64,000 bases of DNA from Macrocystis pyrifera. Lineage: Eukaryota > Sar > Phaeophyceae > Laminariales > Laminariaceae. A model generated the notes under the pieces. It saw only the letters and a list, made by a program, of their open reading frames with translations, searched no databases and was not told the DNA's origin. This document shows positions 20,790 to 55,811 of this stretch, in pieces. The stretch covers positions 1,461,048 through 1,525,047 of the forward strand of contig JASSKH010000006.1 in the NCBI GenBank assembly GCA_031763025.1, in the 5' to 3' direction. Every line of letters starts with the position of its first letter. Position 1 is the first letter of the stretch. Made by a program: the position numbers and the translations under genes.

Positions 20790-22154
20790 CTAGTACAAGA
20801 ACAACGCGAGACTGAGCGCCATGATCGCCATACCGGCAATGATGGAGTTCGTCGTGACCTTGTCAGCAGGGTCGTAGCGCACCGCGGTCGGGATGAGCTC
20901 GTGAAGCGAGATGTTTATCATCATTCCCGCCACGAGCCCGAACAAGAGGCCGTACACGAGCTCGCTCATGATGTCTTTGAGGATGAGCCAGCCGAGAGCC
21001 GCCCCGATGGGCTCGCTCACGCCGGACAGCAGCGCCCACCCGAAAGCCTTCCAACGGTTACCGGTGGCGTAGTACACGGGGATGGCCACGCACAGCCCCT
21101 CTGGGATGTTGTGGATCGCGATGGCCACCGCGAGGGCTAACCCCACTGAGGGATCGGAGAGGCCCGCAACGAACGTCGCCAGGCCTTCCGGGAAATTGTG
21201 GATCCCGATCGCGACGGCGGTCATCACTCCCATGCGAACGAGTTTCTGGTCGTCCCCCTGCGCTACCGCTTCGCCGGCACCTGAAGCTCTCACCGCGTCC
21301 TCCGCCGCGGCTCCCTCCTCCGCTGCGGACAGGTCGTTGCCGGTGTCAACCTTGCATTCGGGGGTAAGGGCAGACACCGGAGATTGCGGGTGCTGCTGCA
21401 CCTTGCCGGCCATACGTAGCTGCAGGGTGTGGAGGTCGGGCGACGGGCGCACGGTCGGGCCGTTGCTGAGTTCGACCACTACGTCGTGCTCGTGCGGGAA
21501 GTCGCGGAACGAGTGTCCACCGCCGCTGTTGCCCACGCCCCTCTTCAGCGGCAGCGGCTTATCGGCGTTCGGGAAAACTACGTCAGCCGCGCCGCTTGGA
21601 GCAACGGCGACCGTGCCGTCCTCGACGAAGGCAGACCTATCCTTCGCGACGGCAGACGACTTCTTCCCACCGCCACCGGCCACGGCGGCGGCGGAGACAC
21701 GGCTAGGGCTATTGGCGGACGAGGAACCGTCCAGGTCGTAAAGAGAGATGTCGACGTTGTGGTCGCCAACATCCCCCTCGATGAGGTGCACCAAGAAGTC
21801 GATCCCCTTGTAGAAGAAAATGCCACCAAACAGGCTAAGCGTCGCGTACAGGTACGCGCTCGCCTGGCGTTGTTGGGAAAAAAGGCGGCGTTGGGGGCGG
21901 GGGCGGGCGGGGGGCAGCGATGGGAGGGCGTCAAACAGCAGTCACTTTCAACCCTTTTCCAACTCCAAAAACTAGCCTACTGATGGTCCAATAACAAGAG
22001 TTTCGTCCCCATAACGGATGCACGGGTAAAAATGAAATGTGTGTTGGCGTTCACCGTGGCGGGGCGGGGGGGAGCGTACTCAATTGTTGCTTGCCTTAGT
22101 CATTCGACCATTGACCACGCATCCCTTTCGAGACGTCGAGACGGAGCACTGTGG

Positions 22155-28600: not shown

Positions 28601-28850
28601 AAGCGGAGTATCTCTACGTTCACGAGAGATGCATGTTTTGTTCACAACCGACGAATTTAATCATTTATAGTCATGGGCTCTACCGACGGAAACTAATAGC
28701 TGAAGTTGCCCAGAGGCAGAGAGAAGAGAAGAACGGCCACACTCGTCCCGCGCCCCCGCCTAGCTTCTCGTGATAGGTGCACAAGCAGAGCACGGCACTG
28801 CTCGCTGCCGATTGATAGGCTTAGAGGCTAGGTCTACTGTTGTGGTTTCT
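28601..28850 (+). repeat. YR element 2 terminal repeat A1
   Basis: 250 bp from AAGCGGAGTATCTC to GTTGTGGTTTCT, apparently identical to A2 at 37133-37382. The match ends abruptly at both sides (left flank GGCCTCTAG, right continuation AGCAGCAACTG). Confidence 0.9.
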
Positions 28851-30041
28851 AGCAGCAACTGCGGAGGTCGGCGGGCTACAGCATGCAGCGGGAGGAGGAA
28901 GAGCAGGGGCAACGAGCGCTTTCCCGGTATGTGGCGAACGAGGGGGGGTCCCGGGCGTTCCCGGGTCTAGACCCCGAACTCGATCACAATGGGGCGTGGG
29001 GCGGTCGACTCCGGTACACAATGATACACGCCCGCAAGCAAGCATCGTTAACTCGCTCGTTCGGGGCGGCCAGCCGTGATTCCCACGTGTTGTGGTCGTC
29101 GTACATGCACGAAGTTATTATAGCTGGCACGGGTAGAAGCACGAAGTTATTATAGCTGGCACGGGTAGAAGGCAGCTCACGTCCTTTCCCAACCCGCGAA
29201 TACGCTATACGAAAGGCTATACTGAGGTATACCTAGGAAAGAAAGACATACCCGGACCTAGAGTACTGGGCATTAATATGGGAACACCCGTTGACGCCGG
29301 AGCGGAGGGCATATGTGGTGTACGAGTATAGGCCAGGTTGGTTCCTTTGCCTTTCTCGCAGACCCCGTACCCAGGAAGACACATTCTCGCATACACCGGT
29401 ATACATCGCGAGCCACAACGGACTGTTGTACGTACCACAATGCTGTGTCATACACGTTGCGAGACACATATGTACTGCTGTATGCTCCAACTATATACAT
29501 GATCGATGGCCAAGGAATTGTGGCCGGCGCCACTAACGACACGTACAATACAAATCGCGAGACACACTTGTACTGCTGTATGCCCCAACTACAGGGTCGA
29601 TGGCTAAGGAATTGTGGCCGGGGCCACTAACGATACATACCATACACATAGCGACACACGTGGACTGCTGTAGGCACTGCTGTAAGCTCCAACGACGCGG
29701 TGCCGGCGCACCTAGAAGCGATATATCATACTATGCATAACGATATATACCATACTCGCATGTGCCAGTGCACTTCTAATACAAGGCGGTCGATGGCGGG
29801 GGGGACTTGGGGCCGGTGTCACTGAGAATACAACTCGCGAGACACAGGGCGTCACGATGTGCGGGAACTCACCACGAACAGACCATACTAGTACGTTCTA
29901 CTGGTCATATCAACAACGCTGTGCCGGTGCACTAAGCGCTATCGACGTTATCGTACGCGTCAAGACGCGCAGGACCTTACTACGAGTAGACCATACTAGT
30001 AGTGAGACACTATGTGCCACTGTCCGTATCAACAACGGTGG

Positions 30042-30075
<34 letters not shown>

Positions 30076-30190
30076 GTCGGTAGTGAAGGAACAAGTGCCG
30101 GTGCAGGTCTCGTGGCCGGCGCCACCGCGTCGGCCGGTGACCCGTCCCTCACCACCGATACATACCATGTCCCACTGTTCATATTAATAG
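28851..30190 (+). other. Element-internal leader with degenerate satellite
   Basis: No gene seen. It contains a 31-bp tandem pair (29107-29137 and 29138-29169, CACGAAGTTATTATAGCTGG core). Diverged satellite units with GTGCCGGCGCAC or GTGCCGGTGCAC appear from about 29700, and there is a 29-nt A run at 30044-30072. Similarity to the 140-bp unit increases rightwards. Confidence 0.6.
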
Positions 30191-31430
30191 CGCTGTGCCG
30201 GTGCACTAGAAAGCGGTCGGTGGTGAAGGACTAAGTGCCGGTGCAGGTCTCGTGGCCGGCGCCACCGCGTCGGCCGGTGACCCGTCCCTCACCCCCGATA
30301 CATACCATGTTCCACTGTTCATATTAATAGCGCTGTGCCGGTGCACTAGAAAGCGGTCGGTGGTGAAGGACTAAGTGCCGGTGCAGGTCTCGTGGCCGGC
30401 GCCACCGCGTCGGCCGGTGACCCGTCCCTCACCACCGATACATACCATGTTCCACTGTTCATATTAATAGCGCTGTGCCGGTGCACTAGAAAGCGGTCGG
30501 TGGTGAAGGACTAAGTGCCGGTGCAGGTCTCGTGGCCGGCGCCACCGCGTCGGCCGGTGACCCGTCCCTCACCACCGATACATACCATGTTCCACTGTTC
30601 ATATTAATAGCGCTGTGCCGGTGCACTAGAAAGCGGTCGGTGGTGAAGGACTAAGTGCCGGTGCAGGTCTCGTGGCCGGCGCCACCGCGTCGGCCGGTGA
30701 CCCGTCCCTCACCACCGATACATACCATGTCCCACTGTTCATATTAATAGCGCTGTGCCGGTGCACTAGAAAGCGGTCGGTGGTGAAGGACTAAGTGCCG
30801 GTGCAGGTCTCGTGGCCGGCGCCACCGCGTCGGCCGGTGACCCGTCCCTCACCACCGATACATACCATGTTCCACTGTTCATATTAATAGCGCTGTGCCG
30901 GTGCACTAGAAAGCGGTCGGTGGTGAAGGACTAAGTGCCGGTGCAGGTCTCGTGGCCGGCGCCACCGCGTCGGCCGGTGGACCCGTCCCTCACCACCGAT
31001 ACATACCATGTCCCACTGTTCATATTAATAGCGCTGTGCCGGTGCACTAGAAAGCGGTCGGTGGTGAAGGACTAAGTGCCGGTGCAGGTCTCGTGGCCGG
31101 CGCCACCGCGTCGGCCGGTGACCCGTCCCTCACCACCGATACATACCATGTTCCACTGTTCATATTAATAGCGCTGTGCCGGTGCACTAGAAAGCGGTCG
31201 GTGGTGAAGGACTAAGTGCCGGTGCAGGTCTCGGGGCCGGCGCCACCGCGTCGGCCGGTGACCCGTCCCTCACCACCGATACATACCATGTTCCACTGCC
31301 CATATTAATAGCGCTGTGCCGGTGCACTAGAAAGCGGTCGGTGGTGAAGGACTAAGTGCCGGAGCAGGTCTCGGGGCCGGCGCCACCGCGTCGGCCGGTG
31401 ACCTTTCCCTCACCACAGATATATATACTA
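30191..31430 (+). repeat. 140-bp satellite, array 1
   Basis: The word CGCTGTGCCGGTGCACTAGA recurs at 30191, 30331, 30471, 30611, 30751, 30891, 31032, 31172 and 31312. This is nine units with a 140-bp period and one 1-bp insertion. Units also contain GGCCGGCGCCACCGCGTCGG and differ at a handful of positions. No ORF runs through the array. Confidence 0.95.
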
Positions 31431-31999
31431 TGTCCAAAATCAACAACGTTGTAAAAAAAAGGAAAGCGGCGGTGGTGAAGGACTAAGTGCCGGTGCAGGT
31501 CTCGTGGCCGGCGCCACCGCGTCGGCCGGTGACCCGTCCCTCACCACCGATGCATACCACACACGTTGAGACAACGTAACGCTGTATGTGCTACGACGCA
31601 TGTAGCAGTACCGCGGTGCCGGCGCACCGGAAGGCGGTCGATAGTGGCGGAGTAAGCGCCGGTCCACATCCCGGGACCGGAGCACCGGCTTACAAGTCGA
31701 GTTCGAGGGGAACGCATGCCGGCGCATGCTTCACCCCCCCCCACCACCCCCCCCCCCACCGCCGCCTCTATCCAAGTCATTCCCTCAAGGGAACGGCTGG
31801 GGGACGAGATGCGCGATGCGGACCAAGTTGCTCACCCGTTGACAGGAAGATGCCGGTGCATGTCAACAACCGCGGCGAACGCCGGCGCGTACGAACGGAG
31901 TGCCAGCGCACATGAGCACGGGGACAAGTAAGCCCCACCCTCGTCCAGGCCGGTGCATGGATAGTGCTCACCGTCGCCTCTATCTAAAAATTCGTTCCC

Positions 32000-32056
<57 letters not shown>
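31431..32056 (+). repeat. Satellite spacer 1 with 55-nt C run
   Basis: About 570 bp of non-satellite sequence, ending in C(55) at 32002-32056. It is duplicated almost exactly at 32884-33509. It encodes only repeat-shadow frames: the same 95-codon minus-strand frame appears in both copies. Confidence 0.85.
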
Positions 32057-32883
32057 ATTAATAGCGCTGTGCCGGTGCACTAGAAAGCGGTCGGTGGTGA
32101 AGGACTAAGTGCCGGTGCAGGTCTCGTGGCCGGCGCCACCGCGTCGGCCGGTGACCCGTCCCTCACCACCGATACATACCATGTTCCACTGTTCATATTA
32201 ATAGCGCTGTGCCGGTGCACTAGAAAGCGGTCGGTGGTGAAGGACTAAGTGCCGGTGCAGGTCTCGTGGCCGGCGCCACCGCGTCGGCCGGTGACCCGTC
32301 CCTCACCCCCGATACATACCGTGTTCCACTGTTCATATTAATAGCGCTGTGCCGGTGCACTAGAAAGCGGTCGGTGGTGAAGGACTAAGTGCCGGTGCAG
32401 GTCTCGTGGCCGGCGCCACCGCGTCGGCCGGTGACCCGTCCCTCACCCCCGATACATACCATGTTCCACTGTTCATATTAATAGCGCTGTGCCGGTGCAC
32501 TAGAAAGCGGTCGGTGGTGAAGGACTAAGTGCCGGTGCAGGTCTCGTGGCCGGCGCCACCGCGTCGGCCGGTGACCCGTCCCTCACCACCGATACATACC
32601 ATGTTCCACTGTTCATATTAATAGCGCTGTGCCGGTGCACTAGAAAGCGGTCGGTGGTGAAGGACTAAGTGCCGGTGCAGGTCTCGGGGCCGGCGCCACC
32701 GCGTCGGCCGGTGACCCGTCCCTCACCACCGATACATACCATGTTCCACTGCCCATATTAATAGCGCTGTGCCGGTGCACTAGAAAGCGGTCGGTGGTGA
32801 AGGACTAAGTGCCGGAGCAGGTCTCGGGGCCGGCGCCACCGCGTCGGCCGGTGACCCGTCCCTCACCACAGATATATATACTA
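32057..32883 (+). repeat. 140-bp satellite, array 2
   Basis: Six units at 32066, 32206, 32346, 32486, 32626 and 32766 (140-bp period). The last two units share variants with the last two of array 1 (CTCGGGGCC, CACTGCCCAT, GGAGCAGG). The arrays therefore belong to a larger duplicated block of array plus spacer. Confidence 0.95.
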
Positions 32884-33464
32884 TGTCCAAAATCAACAAC
32901 GTTGTAAAAAAAAGGAAAGCGGCGGTGGTGAAGGACTAAGTGCCGGTGCAGGTCTCGTGGCCGGCGCCACCGCGTCGGCCGGTGACCCGTCCCTCACCAC
33001 CGATGCATACCACACACGTTGAGACAACGTAACGCTGTATGTGCTACGACGCATGTAGCAGTACCGCGGTGCCGGCGCACCGGAAGGCGGTCGATAGTGG
33101 CGGAGTAAGCGCCGGTCCACATCCCGGGACCGGAGCACCGGCTTACAAGTCGAGTTCGAGGGGAACGCATGCCGGCGCATGCTTCACCCCCCCCACCACC
33201 CCCCCCCCCCCCACCGCCGCCTCTATCCAAGTCATTCCCTCAAGGGAACGGCTGGGGGACGAGATGCGCGATGCGGAGTACCAAGTTGCTCACCCGTTGA
33301 CAGGAAGATGCCGGTGCATGTCAACAACCGCGGCGAACGCCGGCGCGTACGAACGGAGTGCCAGCGCACATGAGCACGGGGACAAGTAAGCCCCACCCTC
33401 GTCCAGGCCGGTGCATGGATAGTGCTCACCGTCGCCTCTATCTAAAATTCGTTCCCGTCCCCCG

Positions 33465-33509
<45 letters not shown>
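32884..33509 (+). repeat. Satellite spacer 2 with 45-nt C run
   Basis: Near-identical copy of spacer 1, differing mainly in C-run lengths and a 3-bp indel (GCGGAGTACCAAG versus GCGGACCAAG). It ends with C(45) at 33465-33509, immediately before the Gag ORF. Confidence 0.85.
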
Positions 33510-33510
<1 letters not shown>

Positions 33511-33512
33511 CG

Positions 33513-35630
33513 TTGTCCGTCGTCGCCGCACCTGTGCCCTGCCTTGCGTCTGCGCCGTACTGTCGCGCTCAATTTGTTTGTCTTCGCAGGGGCCCGGCAA
33601 GAACGACCGCGGAGAGAGGAACCGGGAGAACGCCCGGTAGCGACGGTGACGATGAGGCTCCCGTGTCGATAGCAGACTTTGCCACTTTCAAGCAGGAGGT
33701 GGCGAACGAAGTCGCCCAGCTCCAGGCGGCCATCCAGCGATCGGACGAGGCCATTGAGGCCTCGCGTCGCTCCGCCCACGGGGGAAGGGGAGGCGACGCC
33801 AGCGGGCCCGGACAGCAGCCCGGTAGCTCCGCTGCCAGGGCCGCCCCACGGCACCATTCCCCCAGCACCGCCCTACTCGGACCGCCGACCGGACAGCTCT
33901 TCGGGAGCCCCGCTGCCGGGGTCCTCCCCCCAGACTCCAGCATCGCCGACCAACCCGTCGACGGAGCCGCGGGCGGCCGCGCGGGCCTGCGCGGGTCCCT
34001 CAACGCCGCACAAAGCAGGCTCGCCGTAGGCCCGGGGCGAGCGAGGGACTACGGCGGTACTCCGGGCGGCGCCGGAGCCGCCGGAGCTCCTCTCGGACAA
34101 GCAGGCCCGGGGGGCTACGGCGGGATTCTGGGCGGCGCCGGAGCTGCCGGCCCTCCTCTCGGACAAGGAGGCCAGTTCGCCGTAGGACCGGGAGGGCGGG
34201 GCTACGGGAGCGTCTCCAGCGGTATCGAGGCCACCGCGGGCCCAGCTGGAAGGGCGACCTACGGTGGTGCTCTGGCCGGTACCGGAGCCGCCAGCGTCCA
34301 CCTCGGCCAGGCGGGCGGGCTCGTAGTGGGTCCGGTGGGGGGGGGCTCGGCTACGGGGCATATGCGGGCGGCACCGGAGGCGCCGGCGCATTCTCCGGAC
34401 AAGTGGGCGGGCTCGCCCTGGGCGGGACAGGAGCCAACGGCGCTCCATCGGCTGCACTCGGCCATGTGGCCAACGACGGGCCGGGCGGGCTTGCGGTCGG
34501 GGCGGATATGTACGGGGACGGCAGCGCCGGCAACCCGTTTACCGCTCGGGGCAGACAGGTAGAGAAAAATAATGACCAACCGCGCGGTGGCCTCGTGGGG
34601 CAACCCCGCGACCCGACTTTGGCAGATACTATGCGGCGGCCGCCCGGCATCGATGCAGCGGGCGGCCGTGCAGGGTACGTGGGGGCCTCGGTCAACATAT
34701 CGGCCGGCGTCCATGGCATGCTGGAAGAGCTGGACGACCTCAACTTTCTGGCCTTCACACCGCGCGGCGGGGCCGGCATCACCCTCCCACTGGCGCAACA
34801 CCTGAGCATTTTGGGGCACGCGATCGTCACCATCGCGTCCCGCGGACTCCCACAAGGGGGTGCGGATCTCCAGGTGGCGCGCGCCCGCTTGGAGGCGCTC
34901 GCCCGAGCCTTCAGCGCGGGGGCGACGATCCTCAACGATCACGTGATGGAGCACTTTGCGGTCGCCGACCGCCCGGCAAACCGGGCCAGGCGGGCGGCTC
35001 TGGTGACAAAGGACCTCGAGACCTTCGCGCTCGACCTGCGTTGCATCTCCGACTCCTGCGGCCACGCGTGGGCCTACCCCCCGCCGCTGGAGTCCTTCCC
35101 CGCCATCCCGGGGCCCCGTTGGCCCCGCCTTTCCGGATACGTGGCCCTCGGCGGTCTGATCAACGCCGAAGTCCAGCAACCTCGCCGCACTTCCGCCATG
35201 ATGGCCGGGGTCGGGGCCGGTGAATGCCGGCAATTGGGGAAGACCGGCAAGTGTCGCTTCGGTGACGCCTGCGTGTTCACCCACGTCGGCCCCGCCCGCA
35301 AGACGAGCAGCGGCAACAAGCGCAAGGCGGCTACCGGCGGGGGATCGGCCGACAGCGGCGTCGCAGCCAGCGGCACGGCATCCGGGGAACCCCCGGCCAA
35401 GAGGGCCAAAGGAAAAGGAAAAGGGGGGGGGGGGGGGCGGCGGCGCGAGTAACGGAAGCAGCGGCGGCGGCAGCGGCGGCAGTAGCAGCGGCAGCGGTAG
35501 CGGCGGTGGTTCCGGCAGCAGCGGCAGCGGCGGCAGCGGCAGCGGCGGCGGCAGCGGTAGCGGCAGTGGCAACGGGGCGTCGAGCGGGGGGGCTTTCACT
35601 CGCTCGGCGGCGGCCAGGGCTGACGAATAG
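33513..35630 (+). pseudogene. Gag-like protein of YR element 2 (two homopolymer frameshifts)
   Basis: A nucleocapsid-like protein would package or bind the element's nucleic acid. The frame opens at 33513 without an ATG. A pyrimidine-rich TTGTCTTCGCAG at 33579-33590 looks like a splice acceptor, so the start may lie in an upstream exon. Order: a coiled segment with FATFKQEVANEVAQLQ, long Gly/Ala-rich repeats (about 34020-34480), a conserved globular region (about 34690-35200), a CCCH zinc finger C-x8-C-x5-C-x3-H (about 35225-35283), a Lys-rich stretch, and a Gly/Ser tail to the TAG at 35628-35630. Two frame changes are needed: in the G9 run at 34337-34345 and in the G15 run at 35423-35437. 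Both are homopolymers, so they may be sequencing errors rather than mutations. The CCCH finger is well formed; Gag assignment comes from position and composition. Confidence 0.6.
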
Positions 35631-35768
35631 GGGGACGGGCCTCGCCCCTCAGCAGGGGCGAGGCCGATCGTAGGGCGTACGGAAGCAGCAGCGCGAGATG
35701 CACAGCTTGCACGTCCGGGGCCGGCGTCCGTTGGGGGACCAGGTCTTGGGGCCAACGGGCGTCGCGCT

Positions 35769-36783
35769 ATGCTCAGGAGTGCTGGCAGCCAGCTCATCCG
35801 CCAGTCGGTTGCGCCGTCGTCTCACCGAGCTTACACGTCAGGTTTCCGGTCTTGGACCGCTTTTCGGGGGTTGATAAGGGAGGCTCCGTATTTCGACACG
35901 TCAGCCTCCAATTCCGATAAGATTCAGGCGTTACTTGAGTTCGTAGCGTGGTGCGCGTCGGAGGGCAATCAAGCCGGCACTATAGCCAGTAAATTATCAG
36001 CTGTGTTGCACTTTCACCGCGTGAATGTGCAGATGGAGTTGCCCACGTCGTCGCCGCTTGTCAAACGCGCTTTAAAAGGGGTGTCACGGTCGCACGTTGT
36101 CGCCGGTACCCCGAAAAGAATTCGGCGCCCTATATCGTGGATCACGTTGTTGGAAGGACAGGGCCTGGCCCTGTCGTGGGGCCCGGGCGGCCGAGTGCTC
36201 TGGCGGTCGCTAGCGTTGGGCTATTTTTTTCATGGCGAGGTCTGACGAAATTTTCGCCTCCTCGTCCGGGGTAGTACACCCCGTGCATTGCTTGACGAGG
36301 GGGGACATAGCGTTGTTCGCGGGGGGACGGCGGTTGAACTCGGCGCAGTGGCACCAGGCTACCAGCATCGAGGTTCTATTTCGAGGCCATAAAGGCGACC
36401 AGGCTCAGCAAGGATCGGTTATCGTGCGCACACGGGACGACGCCTTCGGGGCGCGTTCCGGGGTAGGAGCAGGCGGCGGTGCCGTCGCTCTTATGGTGGA
36501 GTTGCTGTCGGGATATCCGACGTTGCCGGAAAGCGCCCCCCTGTCGTCGTATCGGTACGGTAATGAGGTCAGAGTGTGGGGGTACACGGAGGCCCTCGGG
36601 GCACTCCGCGAAGTGGTTGCCGAAGCAGGAGACGATCCCAGCGAAGTCGGCCTCCACTCATTGCGTATCGGCGCAACCACTACTCTAGCGGCGGGGGGGG
36701 AAGTACCGCAGAGGGTGATTCAGAGAGAAGGTAGATGGAAGTCCCCAGAGTCTTCCAAGACGTACACCCGCAATAACCCATAG
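35769..36783 (+). pseudogene. DIRS/Ngaro-type tyrosine recombinase (one T-run frameshift)
   Basis: This enzyme would integrate or resolve the element's DNA by a covalent 3'-phosphotyrosine intermediate. It starts with ATG at 35769 and would be about 337 residues. The N-terminal core-binding domain has SSHRAYTSGFRSW and LLEFVAWCASEG. The catalytic domain has MARSDEI (box-I Arg), RGHKGD (Lys), LHSLRIG (His-x-x-Arg), REGRWKS (Trp) and KTYTRNNP (Tyr nucleophile), so all expected residues are present. The frame breaks once, in the 7-T run at 36224-36230. One T fewer would join GYFF to MARSDEI in phase. This may be a sequencing error, a recent mutation, or a slippery site. The stop TAG at 36781-36783 directly follows the Tyr motif. 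Confidence 0.82.
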
Positions 36784-36898
36784 GACGCGGGTATCGTATC
36801 TCGTAAACTAGCAGAGACGGATAACATAGGGCAGAGGCAGCCAGGCCAGGGTACTGTCTGGGGCCAAACACCGTAGTATCGACGCGACCGCGGTATGG

Positions 36899-37134
36899 GG
36901 GGTATGTCAATGGTTTTCTACCATTGGGGGTCTCGGTCGCCCGAGACTGCGTTTGTTAGAGCCCCGGCCAGTCGGCTGGGGGGGGGGGGAACGCCCTGGG
37001 TACTGGCAGTACGATAAGGCAACGAGAGTCAGCGGCCGGTGCCGCGGCTCTCGTACCACGCCAGGAGACTCCCCCCCCCCCCCGACGTCGGAGAGAATAA
37101 TAATAACATGACAATTCGAAGGATATACAACAAA
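36899..37134 (+). repeat. YR element 2 internal repeat B1
   Basis: 236 bp, from GGGGTATGTCAATGG to GGATATACAACAAA. It matches B2 except for G/C-run lengths and GCCCTGG versus GCCTGG, and ends exactly where A2 starts. Confidence 0.9.
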
Positions 37135-37382
37135 GCGGAGTATCTCTACGTTCACGAGAGATGCATGTTTTGTTCACAACCGACGAATTTAATCATTTAT
37201 AGTCATGGGCTCTACCGACGGAAACTAATAGCTGAAGTTGCCCAGAGGCAGAGAGAAGAGAAGAACGGCCACACTCGTCCCGCGCCCCCGCCTAGCTTCT
37301 CGTGATAGGTGCACAAGCAGAGCACGGCACTGCTCGCTGCCGATTGATAGGCTTAGAGGCTAGGTCTACTGTTGTGGTTTCT
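37133..37382 (+). repeat. YR element 2 internal repeat A2
   Basis: Apparently identical to A1. It shares one or two A residues with the end of B1. After GTGGTTTCT it continues into unique CCCGCCCACC sequence for about 135 bp before B2. Confidence 0.9.
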
Positions 37383-37516
37383 CCCGCCCACCCGCCCCTT
37401 TCTTCTTTCGAAGGTGGGTGGAACGGAGCGGCCACAAGGTGTTGGCCACACCGTACTATACTTGTATTATTGTCTGCGATTAACTGGTAGCGATTCGGGG
37501 CTCTCACCAGGAGAGC

Positions 37517-37755
37517 GGGGTATGTCAATGGTTTTCTACCATTGGGGGTCTCGGTCGCCCGAGACTGCGTTTGTTAGAGCCCCGGCCAGTCGGCTGGGGG
37601 GGGGGGGGAACGCCTGGGTACTGGCAGTACGATAAGGCAACGAGAGTCAGCGGCCGGTGCCGCGGCTCTCGTACCACGCCAGGAGACTCCCCCCCCCCCC
37701 CCCCGACGTCGGAGAGAATAATAATAACATGACAATTCGAAGGATATACAACAAA
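37517..37755 (+). repeat. YR element 2 terminal repeat B2
   Basis: Second copy of B, ending ATACAACAAA at the right border. The next bases, TTCAACATGTGACCCACGC, match the right side of the putative empty site near 38116. Confidence 0.9.
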
Positions 37756-38330
37756 TTCAACATGTGACCCACGCAAGCAAGGAGCAGCAGAACAATCGAT
37801 GCCTTGGATGGCGACACAGCTACAGCAGTAGATAGCGATGTTCCCCCGCTCACGACGCGCAATCGGAGGTCGGTGCCTTTCTCCGTGGCTAGACTGCAGT
37901 CGGCTGGCGCGGACTCGGGCCAAGAGACCAAGAGAAGCGCACTTCGCGCGCATCTCTCCGTGGATACGTACTCGTAGACTGCAGCAGCAGGAGCAGCGGT
38001 CAGTCAAGTGCGCTGGGCTCGGATGATTTATTGTGTCAAAATATACAACATGTTGGCTTGAAATCCGACGACTTGGGCCATCATGATTTACAAATCGAAA
38101 AATGGTACGGCCTCTAAATTCAAGACGTGACCCACGCAAGCATGAAGCAGCAGAACAGTCCATGTATTAGATGGTGACAGCTGTGTATCGCGACGTCGCT
38201 TCGCACCCGCCGCGCGATCGGCGGTCGGCGCGTTTCTCTGTGGCTAGACTACAGCAGTCGACCGGCGCGGGCACGTCTCTTCGCCGCTAGACCAGAGGCA
38301 GTCAGCGTGGGCTCGGCCACTTGGGTCGCA
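37756..38330. repeat. Local duplication flanking YR element 2; empty-site paralogue
   Basis: Two diverged copies of one sequence start near 37756 and 38116. Both have GTGACCCACGCAAGCA, GAGCAGCAGAAC or GAAGCAGCAGAAC, and later CTCTGTGGCTAGACT or CTCCGTGGCTAGACT. At 38062-38160 the left-flank sequence (GGGCCATCATGATTTACAAA, AAATGGTACGGCCTCTA) runs directly into the right-flank sequence. This shows the locus without the element. Confidence 0.7.
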
Positions 38331-54098: not shown

Positions 54099-55811
54099 CT
54101 AGTAGTTGAACAAAATGAGACTGAGCGCCATGATTGCCATGCCGGCAAAAATGGAGTCCGTTGTGACCTTGTCAGCAGGGTCGTAACGCACCGCGGTCGG
54201 TATGAGCTCGTGGAACGAGATGTTCACCATCAGTCCCGCCACAACTCCAAACAAGATGCCGTACACGAGCTCGCTCATGATATCCTTAAGAACAACCCAG
54301 CCGAGAGCCGCCCCAATGGGCTCACTGATCCCCGACAGTAGCGCCCACCCAAACGCCTTCAAACGGTTTCCGGTGGCGTAGTACACGGGGATGGCCACGC
54401 ACAGCCCCTCTGGGATGTTGTGGATCGCAATGGCCACCGCTAGGGCTGCCCCCACCGAGGGATCAGAGAGTGTCGCAACGAATGTGGCCAGGCCTTCCGG
54501 GAAATTGTGGATCCCGATCGCGACAGCGGTCATAAATCCCATGCGCACGAGTTTTCGGTCATCTCCCTTCTCTGCCGCTTCGTCGCCGGCCACCATCGCC
54601 TTCACGGTGCCTTCGGCGTCCGCACCCTCCTCCACAACGTTGACGTCCCCGCCGGTGTCGACCTTGCACTCGGGCGTGACGGTAGACGCGGCCATATCCG
54701 CATGCGGGTGCTGGTGCTGGTGCTGCACCTTGCCGGCCAAGCTGAGCTGCAGCCTATGGAGATCGGGTGACGGGTTTATGATCGGCCCGGTGCCAAGCTC
54801 AACGACGACGTCATGGTCGTGTGAGAATTCGCGGGACGATTGAGGGCGATCGTAAGCATAGTGGGCCTGCTGTTGACCGTTCCCTCCGCCGTTCGCGTCC
54901 GTTTGCGCCGGCGGCTTCTCGGCAGCAGGAAATTTAGAGTCGGCTACGCCGCTCGAGGCGACAGCAACAGTTGCTCCCTCGACGAAAGCGTCACCTTTCG
55001 ATGTGGAAACGTCACGATGAGAGCGTTTACCAGATGATATGTTGTTCAGGTCGTAGAGGTCGATGTCGATGTTGTGGTCGCCAACATCACCCTCGAGGAG
55101 GTGTACCACGAAGTCTATCCCTTTGTAGAACAGAATGCCACCGAACAAGCTGACTGTCGCGTACGTGTACGAGTCCGCCTGGCGTTGTTGGTAAAAAAAA
55201 CGTGGTTATTCAGGAACGGAGGCATACCGGGGGGTGGGGGTGGAGGGAGGCTTGACACAGCAGCCACTTGAAAAATGGAAGCGCAGTATCGCGTCTCTCA
55301 GTGTGCATCATTTGAATGGACACCGACGTAGGAAAATTCCATGATGCTCGCAACCTCGTCTACGGACGAGGAACAGCTTCAGAGCACCTCACTATGGGCA
55401 TGAACCTTACATCCCAAACCCCAACCCTTACACGGTTCGAAACAGCCTTAGCAGGCTCCGTTCAACACCCAAAACATGCGCCGACAATGGGGGTGGCGGA
55501 CTCCATCTCCCAAAGTTCAGCGTGCAACAGAGCGCACGCTCAACAACCCCGCGTGAGCTGCCTGAAGCGCTGACCGCCATGTGCCCGCAGTGTGTTCGAT
55601 GGCCTCGTCTCGTAGAGGTGTTTCAGTATCACACCATGTACATTATGAAAACGAGAATATTTGGGCGAAACAGACCACTCACCTCGGAACAACCATAAGC
55701 GACAAAGGCGCCCTGCGACTCTTCGAATAAATCCACGAAGGAAAGGTAGAGCATAACTCCGGCGGAGAGACCCAGCGAACCCGCCAAGAAGCGTTTACTC
55801 GCCAGCTTCAC
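54099..55811 (-). CDS. ZIP-2 metal transporter, exons 2 and 3 (ZupT/GufA-like)
   Basis: Paralogue of ZIP-1 with the same exon plan. Exon 2 (55811-55683, 129 nt) encodes VKLASKRFLAGSLGLSAGVM and a membrane helix, with a CGAACAG acceptor and a GTGAGT donor. Exon 3 (55178-54099) follows a CCAG acceptor in phase 0. It encodes the third helix (LFGGILFYKGIDFVVHLLEG), a variable loop with a His-rich patch (HQHQHPH, residues 143-149 counted from the Leu encoded at 55148-55146), and five C-terminal helices. Metal-binding motifs HNFPEG (214-219) and HNIPEG (243-248) are intact. His-rich loops in ZIP proteins are thought to sense or bind metal; ZIP-1 lacks this patch. Intron 2 is 504 bp. Exon 1 was not found up to the end of the window; with one like that at 42.3 kb the protein would be about 439 residues. 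Metal specificity is unknown. Confidence 0.9.

Follow-up and report, generated by a model that had tools for sequence, protein, structure and literature searches.

The window analysed here, a 64,000-nucleotide stretch of Macrocystis pyrifera DNA (C220:1461048-1525047 in the 537-Mb source genome, which was searched for family members), holds a mobile element whose only detected readings are a Gag-like open reading frame (ORF) and a tyrosine recombinase (YR) ORF. Between the Gag stop codon and the YR start codon lie 138 bp, and the two readings sit within split direct repeats in the order A1-ORFs-B1A2B2, which is the layout of Ngaro elements (Table 1). An earlier sequence-only reading had described this ORF content and these repeats, with B1 abutting A2, and had taken A1 and A2 to be identical; the alignments bear this out. 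A1 and A2 match at 250 of 250 positions and the match ends precisely at the repeat boundaries, B1 and B2 agree in 235 of 240 aligned columns with all five differences being gaps, and bases 37133-37134 are common to B1 and A2 (a two-base overlap). The window copy is not intact: the Gag and YR readings each change frame. When the flanks of the element are joined they give one unbroken match to a repeat elsewhere in the window (77% over 194 columns, with about 33 bases to the left of the insertion point). We read this stretch as a related empty site, and compared with it the element inserted without target-site duplication, as Ngaro elements do. Since repeat A recurs genome-wide and the joined flanks match an uninterrupted stretch, the repeats are more than a chance arrangement.

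Both ORFs have homologues, and both give Pfam matches below the curated cut-offs: zf-CCCH for the Gag-like ORF (E 0.00057, 20.2 bits against a cut-off of 20.5) and phage integrase for the YR ORF (E 0.00053, 20.2 bits against 27.1). In an alignment of 17 YR sequences, R157 of P0001 is invariant and H296, R299 and Y332 are at least 90% conserved; we take these residues to be the catalytic R, HxxR and Y of the recombinase. The Ectocarpus protein P0042 is a YR homologue with an RNase H-like stretch ahead of the YR. A PDB sequence search with the YR gave no match, and scanning viral contigs with six YR peptide patterns gave one stretch, none being confirmed. Two Gag homologues, P0122 and P0124, are filed under bacterial metagenome-assembled genomes (Nitratireductor and Alloalcanivorax) and are probably algal contamination there.

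A genome search with repeat A and a comparison of internal regions, both proposed by the sequence-only reading, did find copies that keep reverse transcriptase (RT) and RNase H (together RT-RH) between gag and YR. Repeat A gave 998 first-look candidates, and of the 40 scored, 36 were full length, every one at 100% identity. The family is thus large and young, as judged from these 40 scored candidates. Sister copies contain a 756-codon open RT-RH reading precisely where the window copy lacks sequence, so that the complete layout is A1 - gag - RT-RNase H - YR - B1 A2 - spacer - B2. In this reading we recognise what we take to be a YVDD motif and acidic motifs of the RNase H kind; 42 of 8000 scored candidates are homologous to it at E<=1e-10. 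RT-bearing sisters exist at about 98-99% identity. Longer loci covered 19 family places, window included: five with full RT-RH (L009, L010, L011, L022 and L027, which have the Ngaro order of gag, RT-RH and YR that the window copy lacks), three with the window-type junction described below (window, L020, L024), four with a second junction (L012, L018, L019, L034) and seven otherwise deleted or partial (L014, L015, L017, L030, L036, L025, L031). Fourteen further short slices aimed at the junction comprised six of the window type, two of the second type, four native and two without the exon; both sets were picked from the best repeat-A matches and are a non-random sample.

In the window, tblastn matches to the RT-RH reading are confined to its exon edges (residues 1-38 and 695-755). 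A six-frame Pfam scan of the element gave no RT match, and no methyltransferase match was found in the six frames or in the RT-RH reading; Pfam is weak in this family, the RVT_1 match of the RT-RH reading itself having an E value of 0.054. The RT-RH reading continues into YR, leaving no room for a methyltransferase domain, and absence of this domain separates Ngaro from DIRS/PAT in the part of the literature seen (PMC4157794). A PDB sequence search with the RT-RH reading returned five weak phosphatase matches (E about 0.15). Because the sister copies have RT-RH between gag and YR, it is well supported by architecture that this is a Ngaro-like retrotransposon family and that the window copy is a derived, non-autonomous form. 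Crypton elements, to our knowledge a YR family with neither RT nor split repeats, are ruled out by the split repeats and by the RT-RH reading of the sisters.

Compared with L009, precisely 2,078 bp are absent from the window copy, and the absent piece starts with GT and ends with AG. With a slash marking each boundary, L009 reads CCAG/GTGTGACG on the left and GCCGACAG/GTCTTGG on the right, and the window reads CCAG/GTCTTGG. A genome scan found this identical junction at 13 loci. In a second class of copies GAGAAG/GTTAGTGG is the left boundary, joined to the same right base, so that there are two donors (CCAG/GTGTGA and GAAG/GTTAGT) and a single acceptor (CGACAG/GT). An acceptor-side scan with the upstream bases left free, redone in this form since an AG-anchored version presupposed AG before the junction, gave 80 matches: 56 native, 13 from donor 1 and 11 from donor 2. 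The AG-anchored scan, with one mismatch allowed, gave 68 native, 13 donor 1, 8 diverged donor 1 and 11 donor 2 among the best 100 of 110 matches. A donor-side scan with the downstream bases free gave 97 matches, of which 85 were native (point variants and copies with the second, shorter loss included) and 12 were joined to the acceptor. No third partner was found among the 80 and 97 matches of these two scans, which both need a non-A base at the free end, so that copies with A there or changed in the fixed part escape; backward-pattern controls gave 0 in both. Additionally, a protein cluster of 22 sequences, P0144, jumps from a third point to the same acceptor-side residues.

Only 1.6-1.7% of microhomology pairs of 4-5 nt drawn at random from L009 could be placed as GT...AG, and three of the nine separate deletion events recognised for the family can be so placed (P 0.0004 if all arose by chance at that rate; the count includes L015, a weak case with 2-nt microhomology, and excludes diverged copies and P0144). 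The sequence-only reading had held that if most family members carried RT/RH at this position, the element would be a simple deletion. Most copies found do, and a deletion it is, yet not a simple one: the loss recurs, is exact to the base and is bounded by GT...AG. These features point to splicing, an origin that neither of that reading's alternatives had foreseen.

Table 1. Features of the element and its related target repeat in the window (positions within the 64,000-nucleotide stretch)
Feature	Position	Strand	Basis
Repeat A1, left end of the element	28601..28850	+	250/250 identity to A2
5' region with 140-bp tandem array and ~1.45-kb internal duplication with C tracts	28851..33512	+	pieces recur in sister copies
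Gag-like reading in more than one frame, with CCCH zinc finger; last frame stops at TAG 35628-35630	33513..35630	+	Pfam and homologues
Linker, corresponding to the 5' end of the sisters' RT-RH reading; taken as upstream exon under the splicing model	35631..35742	+	copy comparison
12-bp hairpin, candidate readthrough signal	35638..35665	+	folding prediction
Junction lacking the 2,078 bp (RT-RH, GT...AG) held by sister copies	35742..35743	+	copy comparison
YR reading from ATG 35769, split at 36232-36245	35769..36783	+	Pfam and homologues
Repeat B1	36899..37134	+	235/240 to B2, gaps only
Repeat A2, abutting B1	37133..37382	+	identity to A1
Spacer between A2 and B2, 134 bp	37383..37516	+	position
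Repeat B2, right end of the element	37517..37755	+	alignment to B1
Uninterrupted related copy of the target repeat (empty-site paralogue)	38086..38270	+	match to joined flanks

The 13 copies with the exact junction are probably one subfamily derived from one event, as judged from marker bases examined in three of them: at three YR positions the window copy, L020 and L024 agree with one another and differ from eight copies keeping RT sequence. Left flanks differ in all three of these copies, and right flanks differ in all eight compared (window, L020 and L051-L056); L024 is without a full B2. Among the matches listed, at least eight more copies combine this junction with an upstream exon that has diverged (the GGGAGCCCAG type and its variants). 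Two diverged copies, L057 and L058, have the window-type junction. L057 is 83% identical to the window along 401 columns, and L058 reaches 88% along 328 columns and 79% along 107. They are about as distant from the window as from the RT-bearing L011 (26 vs 25 differences of 197 for L057, 14 vs 13 of 126 for L058), and both carry the RT-bearing base at the sole subfamily marker site covered. Should a full tree confirm this placement, the junction would have more than one origin. The 13-locus junction, the differing flanks and the near-identical RT-bearing sisters support one suggestion of the sequence-only reading, namely that the family is non-autonomous, has moved recently and borrows RT in trans. 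Its other suggestion, an RT-less lineage moving by a different route, is not needed, as most copies found keep RT-RH sequence here (85 of 97 at the left point, 56 of 80 at the right).

The reading frame is preserved across the junction. In all three RT-less copies compared, the frame that follows the Gag TAG is open through the linker, over the junction and into YR. Among nine copies with the native linker, the Gag frame continues beyond TAG into RT-RH in eight; the ninth, L009, changes frame within a predicted 12-bp hairpin. This hairpin starts 7 nt 3' of the TAG and has a z-score of -3.06 in an 86-nt stretch picked by eye, and folding of four further copies (L009, L011, L057, L058) predicts it as well, in varying form. 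An open frame past the TAG with a hairpin behind it suggests that the two may serve as a readthrough signal.

Taken together, we propose that the RT-RH segment of complete copies would act as an optional intron. Unspliced RNA would serve as genome and as Gag-Pol message, with Pol possibly made by readthrough of the Gag UAG, and splicing would join the linker behind the Gag stop in frame to YR, allowing the recombinase to be expressed. The spliced RNA would retain both repeat systems and so could be packaged and copied by RT that is very likely supplied in trans, probably by the complete sister copies. The ends of this copy would be completed from the internal B1-A2 sequence, and YR would insert the product at an A-rich core without target duplication. 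One such copy would have founded the RT-less subfamily of the window, whose exact junction now lies at 13 loci. Splicing is the likely origin of the junction, and we give the explanation as a whole, in which spliced RNA copied by trans-acting RT founds RT-less satellite subfamilies, a probability of about 0.78. We infer, too, that the spliced RNA yields YR, that the Gag stop is read through and that copying takes place in trans. A stricter version falls slightly short of even odds in our estimate: that YR is expressed only after splicing, that Gag-Pol and Gag-YR are both made by readthrough of one hairpin-flanked UAG, and that spliced RNA is a satellite formed again and again.

Several observations weigh against this explanation. 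The 13 copies probably make up a single subfamily and so represent one event rather than thirteen, and the independence of the junction in L057 and L058 is read from 126-197 bases and one marker site. The YR of the window copy is broken and an early stop near the YR C-terminus is common to the window, L020 and L024, so the spliced form need not yield a working YR. No obvious polypyrimidine tract was seen at the acceptor. Six of the nine deletion events are not GT...AG, which means that other deletion routes are active in the family. The two junctions also show microhomology of 5 nt (CAGGT) and 4 nt (AGGT), as template switching can produce. Template switching between such short repeats during reverse transcription, with an accidental GT...AG and later amplification in trans, is the main rival, and the family does contain junctions that are not splice-like (L003/L017, L014 and the left junction of L019). 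It would, however, have to bring two distinct left breakpoints to one right base, both with GT...AG, when so few microhomology pairs allow this placement, and to produce the same junction in L057 and L058, apparently outside the subfamily, with no other junction in the 80 and 97 matches. We consider it unlikely.

Much less probable still is that the RT-less form constitutes a lineage independent of RT, multiplying through DNA circles that YR would cut out and reinsert. YR sequence is present, B1-A2 is the sequence expected of a joined circle, and the insertion in the window fits an empty site without duplication. However, excision and reinsertion alone give no gain in copy number. Moreover, in the window copy the two A repeats, and likewise the two B repeats, hardly differ, as is expected if the ends are re-made during reverse transcription; three 5'-truncated copies carry A at the new end (L020, L030, L036), near-identical RT-bearing helpers exist and the YR of the window copy is broken. 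That the assembly dropped RT-RH in one region is hardly credible: the region is repetitive and rich in homopolymers, but the same junction occurs at 13 loci with differing flanks where compared, and substitutions are common to the three RT-less copies compared. We reject both the RT-independent lineage and assembly loss.

The proposed satellite can be set beside known systems, each of which was consulted in part of the cited source. Ngaro elements of Cafeteria combine A1-[ORFs]-B1A2B2 split direct repeats with Gag, RT-RH and YR, as does the family here, and include ORF1-deleted variants (PMC8547959). Ectocarpus, from which P0042 is recorded, has 15 Ngaro families, five PAT-like families and gag-only Copia derivatives (PMC12477816). 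Unlike these Ngaro elements, the window subfamily is without RT-RH and has a GT...AG junction; the portions seen of both sources describe neither splicing nor an RT-less gag-YR form. SDARE of murine leukaemia virus, where spliced subgenomic RNA is packaged, copied by the RT of full-length copies and inserted, is similar in that spliced RNA is reverse-transcribed in trans, experimentally there and by deduction here (PMC10496198, in part). The missing piece of the window copy, bounded by GT...AG with recurrent exact ends, has the feature expected of such a process. The two differ in that SDARE concerns a long terminal repeat (LTR) retrovirus with its own integrase, whereas the product here is a genomic subfamily spread over many loci. 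SIRE/VIPER of Trypanosoma cruzi likewise provides a non-autonomous derivative of a split-repeat YR retrotransposon, though SIRE is a short piece around A2-B2 and no splice-type junction is described in the portion seen (PMC6681497). Similarly, BARE1/BARE2 of barley combine subgenomic splicing of a retrotransposon RNA with a parasitic subfamily using proteins in trans; in contrast to our case, BARE is an LTR element whose spliced RNA is for translation and makes Gag, and genomic DNA gave no amplification of the smaller product, according to the part consulted (PMC3735527). The literature searched, which took in parts of papers and left subscription papers largely outside, gave no account of a Ngaro that derives from splicing or that has gag and YR but no RT.

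How YR retrotransposons produce their recombinase and complete their ends has been little tested. The frozen GT...AG pattern predicts exact splice sites and an exact frame that can be checked in RNA, and it suggests how YR retroelements may lose RT and yet survive as satellites, in parallel with SDARE in a retrovirus.

The 5'-truncated copies bear on the ends. In L020, L030 and L036 repeat A is joined to different internal points, each time breaking at the 3' end of A or no more than a few bases from it. L020 is both RT-less and missing its 5' part, with A joined directly to gag, from which it appears that RT-less RNA was reverse-transcribed again. The three events, which are few, fit addition of repeat A from the internal A2 onto a shortened cDNA end, and resemble the DIRS-1 model, in which an internal region serves as template for missing ends (PMC5633606, in part). 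In such truncations, repeat A at the new end may preserve a trace of the way in which these elements rebuild their ends.

Other breaks were seen in the family. L017 (C223; 2738 and 9417 onward) is a copy between 18-bp duplications (GGAATTTCACGGTAGAAT) that ends in the spacer after CCCCTTT, possibly a non-YR insertion; L018 and L021 likewise break at CCCCTTT. At L025 (9660-9909, C214) a solo 250-bp repeat A lies with no other element piece in the 20 kb read. Within the window element, the 140-bp tandem array occupies 30075-33012, with 95% matches in its first part, and is interrupted by the ~1.45-kb duplication with its long C tracts. One minus-strand frame of 28601-37755, read with stops as residues, matches Pfam DUF6771 above cut-off (E 1e-06) in two stretches, probably a repeat effect. 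The element is flanked on both sides by readings for ZIP zinc transporters (Pfam PF02535), at 20793-21794 and 54102-55148, both on the minus strand.

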